64,000 nt of DNA from Candidatus Freyarchaeota archaeon (GTDB lineage Archaea > Asgardarchaeota > Jordiarchaeia > Jordiarchaeales > Jordiarchaeaceae). The position numbers were made by a program, and so were the translations under genes. Where the stretch lies: contig JAUQZE010000011.1 of the NCBI GenBank assembly GCA_030587365.1, forward strand, positions 36,885-100,884. Reading direction: 5' to 3'. This document shows, one piece after another, positions 47,744-48,791 of this stretch; the first letter of the stretch is position 1, and each line of letters starts with the position of its first letter. The notes beneath the pieces were generated by a model, which saw only the letters and a list, made by a program, of their open reading frames with translations, was not told the origin of the DNA and did no database searches.

Positions 47744-48791
<1,048 letters not shown>

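Follow-up and report, generated by a model that had tools for sequence, protein, structure and literature searches.

A probable EndA-type (bulge-helix-bulge) pre-mRNA intron in the KEOPS gene kae1 of the Asgard archaeon Candidatus Jordarchaeum

The interrupted kae1 gene and its junction

The window analysed here, a stretch of 64,000 nucleotides (nt), comes from a genome of Candidatus Jordarchaeum (G000; 4.2 Mb in 50 contigs), which NCBI places in the Promethearchaeati, that is, the Asgard archaea. On the minus strand, positions 48791-47744 code for Kae1, the catalytic subunit of KEOPS, in a frame that is broken by 28 nt. A sequence-only reading of the window had described two Kae1 frames separated by 48495-48522 with stops in both, and its coordinates and frames were right. 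We consider it highly likely that this insert is a pre-mRNA intron of the EndA type, bounded by a bulge-helix-bulge (BHB) motif, and the kae1 mRNA is very probably spliced. The gene is laid out as follows:

48523..48776, minus strand: kae1 exon 1, with ATG 48776 as the likely start and TTG 48791 as a possible one, ending in ..FSQGPG plus two bases of a Leu codon
48495..48522, minus strand: predicted kae1 BHB intron, 28 nt, phase 2, AAGAAGAGTTTAATCTTTTTCTCCCTTA (frame, fold and alignment evidence)
47744..48494, minus strand: kae1 exon 2, whose first A completes the Leu codon, followed by GPCLR.. to the stop; it holds HxxxH (NHCVAH)

In the unspliced gene, a TAA within the insert closes the exon 1 frame (GLRRV*), and upstream the exon 2 frame is closed by a TAA that spans the 3' junction, two of its bases coming from the insert and the third from exon 2. 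The exon 2 frame has no ATG, GTG or TTG before 48382, a position downstream of NHCVAH, so that HxxxH is translatable solely via the junction, as the sequence-only reading had held. Joined without the 28 nt, the gene reads QGPGLGPCLR and regains the GPGLGPCLR segment expected by that reading. Its TIGR03722 score is then 510 bits (cut-off 375), compared with 98 bits for the exon 1 open reading frame (ORF) and 327 bits for the ORF from 48382. The interruption and its exact frame repair are directly supported. The protein alone places the splice site with a one-base ambiguity (A/A) and the BHB geometry agrees with the site; cuts between bases 2 and 3 of both bulges would give the functional Kae1 product. 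The elements of the fold are, in order along the transcript:

48529..48536, minus strand: 5' arm of the outer (exon) helix, CAGGGUCC (fold; alignment columns 7-14)
48525..48528, minus strand: 5' arm of the central helix, GGGG, within exon 1 (pair probability 0.94-0.97; columns 15-18)
48522..48524, minus strand: 5' bulge CU^A, predicted 5' splice site 48523/48522 (consensus columns 19-21 unpaired; slipped in the single-sequence minimum)
48501..48521, minus strand: intron hairpin AGAAGAG-UUUAAUC-UUUUUCU, inner helix of 7 bp (pairing analysis)
48497..48500, minus strand: 3' arm of the central helix, CCCU, within the intron (fold; columns 48-51)
48494..48496, minus strand: 3' bulge UA^A, predicted 3' splice site 48495/48494 (third bulge base A in 11/11 carriers)
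48486..48493, minus strand: 3' arm of the outer (exon) helix, GGGCCUUG (fold; columns 55-62)

The central helix GGGG:CCCU, the bulges CU^A and UA^A and the hairpin AGAAGAG:UUUUUCU stand as first proposed, and the exon helix, CAGGGUCC:GGGCCUUG, is longer than had been stated, at 8 bp. This pairing potential is directly supported; a working fold, cutting, ligation and translation of the spliced mRNA are inferred. The kae1 transcript would fold over the junction such that the QGP codons pair with the GPC codons in the exon helix and the GGGG of exon 1 with the CCCU near the intron end in the central helix, the remaining intron forming a hairpin. A two-subunit EndA would then cut after the second base of each bulge, freeing the 28 nt, and RtcB would ligate the kae1 exons, restoring QGPGLGPCLR.

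Conservation and covariation of the junction fold

The sequence-only reading had proposed alignment with relatives and covariation of the helices as checks, and both are in its favor. The phylum search covered 227 genomes, 217 of which had a kae1 match at 1e-5 (one row examined each). Kae1 is interrupted at the same codon (residues 85/86) in 11 of the 217, and the remaining 206 show a single row spanning the site, in which a stop-free in-frame insert could escape notice. One stop was seen in 14 of the 206 uninterrupted rows and was judged terminal from the open-frame length; four of these were aligned and have no internal stop. The carriers are five Jordarchaeum-like genomes (inserts of 28 nt in G000, 29 nt in G001, which belongs to the same genus, 29 nt in G002 and G003, and 30 nt in a contig of G183), four from another family of the order (14 nt in G004, 13 nt in G005, 14 nt in G006 and G007) and two Odinarchaeia of one genus (28 nt in G010, 32 nt in G019). 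By family, they fall in f1, f2 and f5, plus the Jordarchaeum-like contig that is binned in f29 (G183). The insert sequences differ. A separate pattern scan of contigs returned 12 matches, namely three real kae1 genes and nine bacterial ones, two of the latter in uninterrupted tsaD-like genes; as it demanded CAG and TGY codons, it is no census.

In a Kae1 tree (n=49), the G183 kae1 is nested within Jordarchaeum (support 98/91), and its contig is for this reason probably misbinned. The G183 contigs C354, C300 and C281 carry Jordarchaeum-like kae1, rtcB and nadE, and G183 is probably a mixed bin. On the same tree, the carrier label needs three changes and a single clade of the 11 carriers is not rejected (approximately unbiased test, p=0.136), which allows for one origin or several. 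L035 (frameshift), the duplicates L001, L014, L027, L052, L053 and L056, and the bacterial L057 and L063 were omitted from the tree.

The pairings of the kae1 BHB are kept in the 11 carriers and are maintained by compensatory change. Given a MAFFT alignment of the 11 junctions, RNAalifold recovered the motif unprompted, from the exon helix through a 4-bp central helix and the two 3-nt bulges to the first pairs of the inner helix; 5 of the 18 consensus pairs show two-sided change. When the BHB was imposed as the structure, 98.5% of 194 cells pair, compared with 40-65% for slid partners (maximum 65.3%). Cells with two-sided changes number 19 against a mean of 6.9 in shuffled alignments, and the covariation score is 0.334 against 0.193; neither value was reached in 500 shuffles, and in all, three of the five alignment measures gave 0/500. 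Individual inserts tell the same story: with the flanks of G000 fixed, none of 20,000 insert shuffles attains the real score of central plus inner helix, and with splice sites set from the protein, shuffling gives p between 0.00005 and 0.0092 in 11/11 carriers. All four central pairs are present in ten carriers and three of them in G001. Conservation and covariation of the pairing are, in this sense, directly supported.

Several observations weigh against this interpretation. The genome of the window is a draft, 87.7% complete and 7% contaminated. In the minimum-energy fold of its kae1 junction (-24.4), the exon helix and the central helix both form with near certainty (pair probabilities 0.94-1.0) and the 3' bulge is present. 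The hairpin of this fold, however, pairs in a register shifted by one base (AAGAAGA:UCUUUUU), so that a 2x2 loop takes the place of the 5' bulge. Requiring the six bulge bases to be open and the central pairs to be closed, the best fold lies 2.0 kcal/mol above this minimum. By the same test, three of the 11 carriers (G002, G003 and the G183 contig) have the strict BHB as their energy minimum. In the other carriers besides G000, it lies above the minimum by 1.4 kcal/mol (G010, G019), by 2.4 (G001, with three central pairs) or, in G004-G007, where it is disfavored because the 5' bulge bases prefer to pair, by 2.7, 4.7, 2.7 and 3.7, respectively. The introns of 13-14 nt have an inner helix of just 1-2 bp. 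Two alignment measures are unremarkable: the number of pairs with two-sided change is attained by 75/500 shuffles and the number of pair types by 95/500. Finally, a synonymous-recoding test gives no sign that the exon helix is under additional selection in G000 (p=0.28) or in five other genomes, with p of 0.12-0.40 across G000, G001, G002, G003, G005 and G006; it does give one in the G183 contig (0.014), G004 (0.043), G007 (0.018), G010 (0.003) and G019 (0.0006). The words "canonical" and "complete" that the sequence-only reading attached to the motif hold for its pairing potential and not for its energy minimum, and several relatives have relaxed forms. Single-sequence energies are less clear than covariation, and EndA may select the BHB despite the energy minimum.

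Of the four 13-14-nt inserts (L023, L029, L066, L025), three have a GCGAAGC-like mini-hairpin, and the strict BHB is not their energy minimum.

The conserved GPGLGP supplies most of the exon helix because GGNCC is self-complementary. A helix that comes free with the protein motif probably explains why the intron lies exactly here, and we read the QGP/GPC codon site as a proto-splice site. Among intronless kae1 genes, one locus matched the synonymous-pairing pattern, with other residues or codons elsewhere, and no such comparison is claimed.

The best-surviving alternative, although a highly improbable one, is programmed bypassing or frameshifting, in which the ribosome hops the hairpin and the RNA stays uncut. 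There is a strong hairpin at the kae1 break, the strict BHB is not the energy minimum in most copies, and frame breaks at cbf5 introns were once taken for frameshifting (PMC2738675; here and below, papers are cited from excerpts of their text). What disfavors a hop is that the gap would be 13, 14, 28, 29, 30 or 32 nt, covering all three residues modulo 3, together with the BHB geometry: the conserved pairing, with both repair points in bulges, is unneeded for a hop. Inserts of similar geometry also occur in three other genes of the genome.

There is hardly any chance that kae1 is a pseudogene or an assembly error. The source is a draft metagenome-assembled genome; kae1 of G013, a single row across the site, breaks its frame further on, and the G003 copy is interrupted by an assembly gap. 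Against this stand 11 contigs with an insert at the same codon and differing sequences; at the level of the family, the insert comparison and the covariation of the 11 carriers speak against an assembly error. A search of G000 at 1e-5 yielded no second kae1 match. Between G000 and G001, nonsynonymous and synonymous divergence (dN/dS) is 0.054/0.598 in exon 1 (70 codons) and 0.063/0.746 in exon 2 (200 codons). Both exons are under purifying selection, with dN about a tenth of dS, which disfavors a pseudogene. The G002-G003 values for exon 2 (0.595/0.737) were not used because the frame of G003 is displaced by a run of N. In the G003 kae1 (L032, around 1000-1060), a repeated stretch comes after this run, and the two mark an assembly fault.

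Equally negligible is a split gene whose two frames yield two polypeptides that assemble: both pieces are open and conserved, but the lack of a start codon before HxxxH would leave the second part without GPCLR and HxxxH. Self-splicing introns of group I or group II, which have a ribozyme core of hundreds of nucleotides, do not fit the size of the insert, and an intein does not fit either, as the 28 nt shift the frame and contain a stop. Selenocysteine (Sec) recoding, which an excerpt of the paper describing Jordarchaeum reports (PMC9723677), cannot explain a 28-nt frame break.

Inserts in other genes and the splicing enzymes

A blind scan of 966 kb of G000, which combined a strict BHB with frame repair and codon usage, ranked kae1 first (42), followed by cbf5 (41), a join on contig C4 (31) and nadE (30). 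The maxima of the controls, five decoy geometries and one with shifted cuts, were 28, 27, 38, 27, 30 and 32, and the C4 join was judged to be due to chance. If the frame is ignored, 27 BHB registers (some overlapping) score at least 38 in 1.27 Mb and six exceed kae1: the BHB motif alone is not unique, and the BHB motif with exact frame repair is. In a strict scan of contigs C12 and C5 of G000 (0.34 Mb, 40 kb of it rescanned) with a looser codon threshold, no score reached 30, and in 0.40 Mb of G010 the kae1 locus, which had been added separately, was alone in exceeding 29. In total, 1.27 Mb or about 30% of G000 was scanned. Since cbf5 and rtcB were looked up deliberately and contigs C7 and C17 were picked for known cases, no enrichment for RNA genes can be claimed.

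Two further positions of G000, C42:241658 and C20:135955, have strong BHBs around TTCAA arms that resemble tRNA T-arms carrying introns at non-canonical positions. ARAGORN found 11 tRNAs, too few for judging tRNA introns.

The other interrupted genes of G000 are located as follows:

C7:21981-22969 (L102): cbf5 with insert; also in L092-L097
C7:53061-54539 (L079): rtcB with insert; also in L080, L081, L082 and L100
C42, 5' splice site near 182471, minus strand: nadE insert (blind scan score 30)

The cbf5 gene is broken in G000, G001, G002, G003, G004, G007 and G011 and whole in G010, G016 and G019. Its inserts measure 29-41 nt, with bulges AG^A and AA^A or TG^A; that of G001 fails to form an inner helix there (p=0.038). 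The inserts split the codon of the catalytic Asp after its first letter, as in Crenarchaeota (PMC2738675), and this common position could stem from ancient inheritance, from transfer or from repeated gains.

In nadE, a 33-nt BHB-like insert with a stop is found in G000, G001 and the G183 contig (L151 and L154 among the carriers), and G002 and G003 of the same genus have the exact empty site, GGT TAC TTC ACC uninterrupted (comparison rows L152 and L153). Since its score does not exceed those of the decoys, the nadE case rests on these empty sites.

In the rtcB genes of G000-G003 and G183, a 30-nt insert that includes an in-frame stop separates PD from AHQG. The gene is unbroken at this site in G004, G006, G007, G010 and G019, and among the matches listed no rtcB break at that site was seen elsewhere. 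G001-G003 have the central helix CCCG:CGGG, whereas that of G000 and G183 contains a G-A mismatch. With an exon helix of 2 bp at the site, the insert has a relaxed BHB form. The rtcB of G019 (L087) has a long protein insertion after NC that looks intein-like by eye.

The enzymes needed for excision and ligation are encoded. A match to the EndA family (PF01974) was found in 13 of the 13 genomes searched, and ten have two. Of the two EndA-family genes of G000, one carries all three residues of the Tyr/His/Lys triad (IYEHG, DHAP, RKKF), and its closest relation is to chain B of PDB 3p1z, which we take to be Aeropyrum pernix EndA; the other is without the His of the triad. The loop GIRKPKSPQF of G000 EndA aligns gap-free to VEKPRGADFE of 3p1z chain B, and the shared Lys is residue 44 by count. 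In A. pernix EndA, according to the excerpt, residue 44 is a Lys in a crenarchaea-specific loop that is needed for broad specificity (PMC6379350). The loop motif was seen in at least 8 of the 13 genomes. RtcB (PF01139) was matched in nine of ten genomes, with partial rows in G001 and G019 and no match in G005. That G000 encodes both EndA and RtcB is directly observed, and together with pairing and covariation it supports the EndA type that the sequence-only reading had assigned to the intron; excision would follow from these.

Because its insert has an in-frame stop, synthesis of RtcB would depend on existing ligase, and the ligase would have to splice its own mRNA. With such a dependence, mRNA splicing could act as a sensor of, or feedback on, tRNA splicing, and the rtcB insert suggests a role of this kind. 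The genes with predicted introns include the RNA maturation genes kae1 and cbf5 as well as rtcB. We regard it as unlikely, though worth stating, that Jordarchaeia and partly Odinarchaeia run a small mRNA-splicing programme by means of the tRNA-splicing enzymes, possibly as a sensor of or feedback on tRNA-splicing capacity. If true, this would be regulated non-spliceosomal mRNA splicing in relatives of eukaryotes.

Relation to known archaeal introns

The kind of element described here, an EndA-type mRNA intron, is already known; what is new is the gene and the phylum. A cbf5 pre-mRNA intron of Crenarchaeota was reportedly described by Watanabe in 2002. The likeness to the crenarchaeal intron (Yokobori 2009, PMC2738675) extends to the cbf5 site itself, which is occupied in Jordarchaeum. 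Unlike that system, the inserts reported here are also in kae1, rtcB and nadE and in Asgard archaea, the intron of the window is not in the cbf5 Asp codon, and kae1 inserts go down to 13-14 nt compared with 33, 36 and 39 bp in crenarchaeal cbf5 (PMC2738675). Excerpts of the same 2009 paper report introns in other protein genes as predicted and unconfirmed, including 12-bp ones in a virus. The latter, putative introns of SIRV1 (Peng 2004, via PMC2738675), are likewise very short and in protein-coding genes; they differ in being viral, shorter than the kae1 inserts and undemonstrated as to splicing. By 2020, according to the excerpt, the cbf5 mRNA of Crenarchaeota was the only additional BHB intron reported in archaea (PMC7714728).

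Archaeal pre-tRNA introns, with strict hBHBh' and relaxed hBH or HBh' forms (PMC6379350), share the motif, the splice positions and the enzymes, and their size range of 11-175 nt (PMC2738675) includes the lengths of the kae1 inserts. The kae1 case differs from them in that it is in an mRNA and its exon helix consists of protein-coding bases. Processing of a BHB in the 5' untranslated region of the Haloferax HVO_1309 mRNA is alike in being an EndA cut in an mRNA, but there the BHB is in the leader and restores no reading frame (PMC7714728). Introns are reported in 92-95% of the tRNA genes of Atabeyarchaeia and Freyarchaeia in the excerpt of PMC11291895, an abundance in keeping with permissive splicing. 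In the excerpt of the paper on the closed Odinarchaeum genome (PMC9246712), the word "intron" is absent. Among the matches listed from open PubMed Central full texts, a body that excludes subscription papers and preprints, we found no intron in archaeal kae1, rtcB or nadE and no mRNA introns of Asgard archaea, in agreement with the earlier statement that a BHB intron in kae1 was not known to have been described.

On comparative evidence, a known kind of intron is extended to kae1, rtcB, nadE and the Asgard archaea. To date, splicing has been confirmed for hardly any archaeal protein gene, and in the papers cited here for cbf5 only. The set includes inserts of 13-14 nt and a natural presence/absence pair (nadE) within one genus; with the empty nadE sites and the length series in kae1, it becomes possible to test directly how archaeal mRNA introns arise, how short they can be and how they are lost. 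Genes of this kind will be cut short by gene finders, so a survey may be wrong where it reports Kae1 or RtcB of an Asgard genome as broken or missing.

Two other reading frames of the window were noted:

47115..47738, minus strand: bud32, the KEOPS kinase, directly downstream of kae1 (TIGR03724, 253.8 bits, cut-off 125)
51295..52197, plus strand: ORF of 300 aa that presumably resembles a TnpB-type transposon protein
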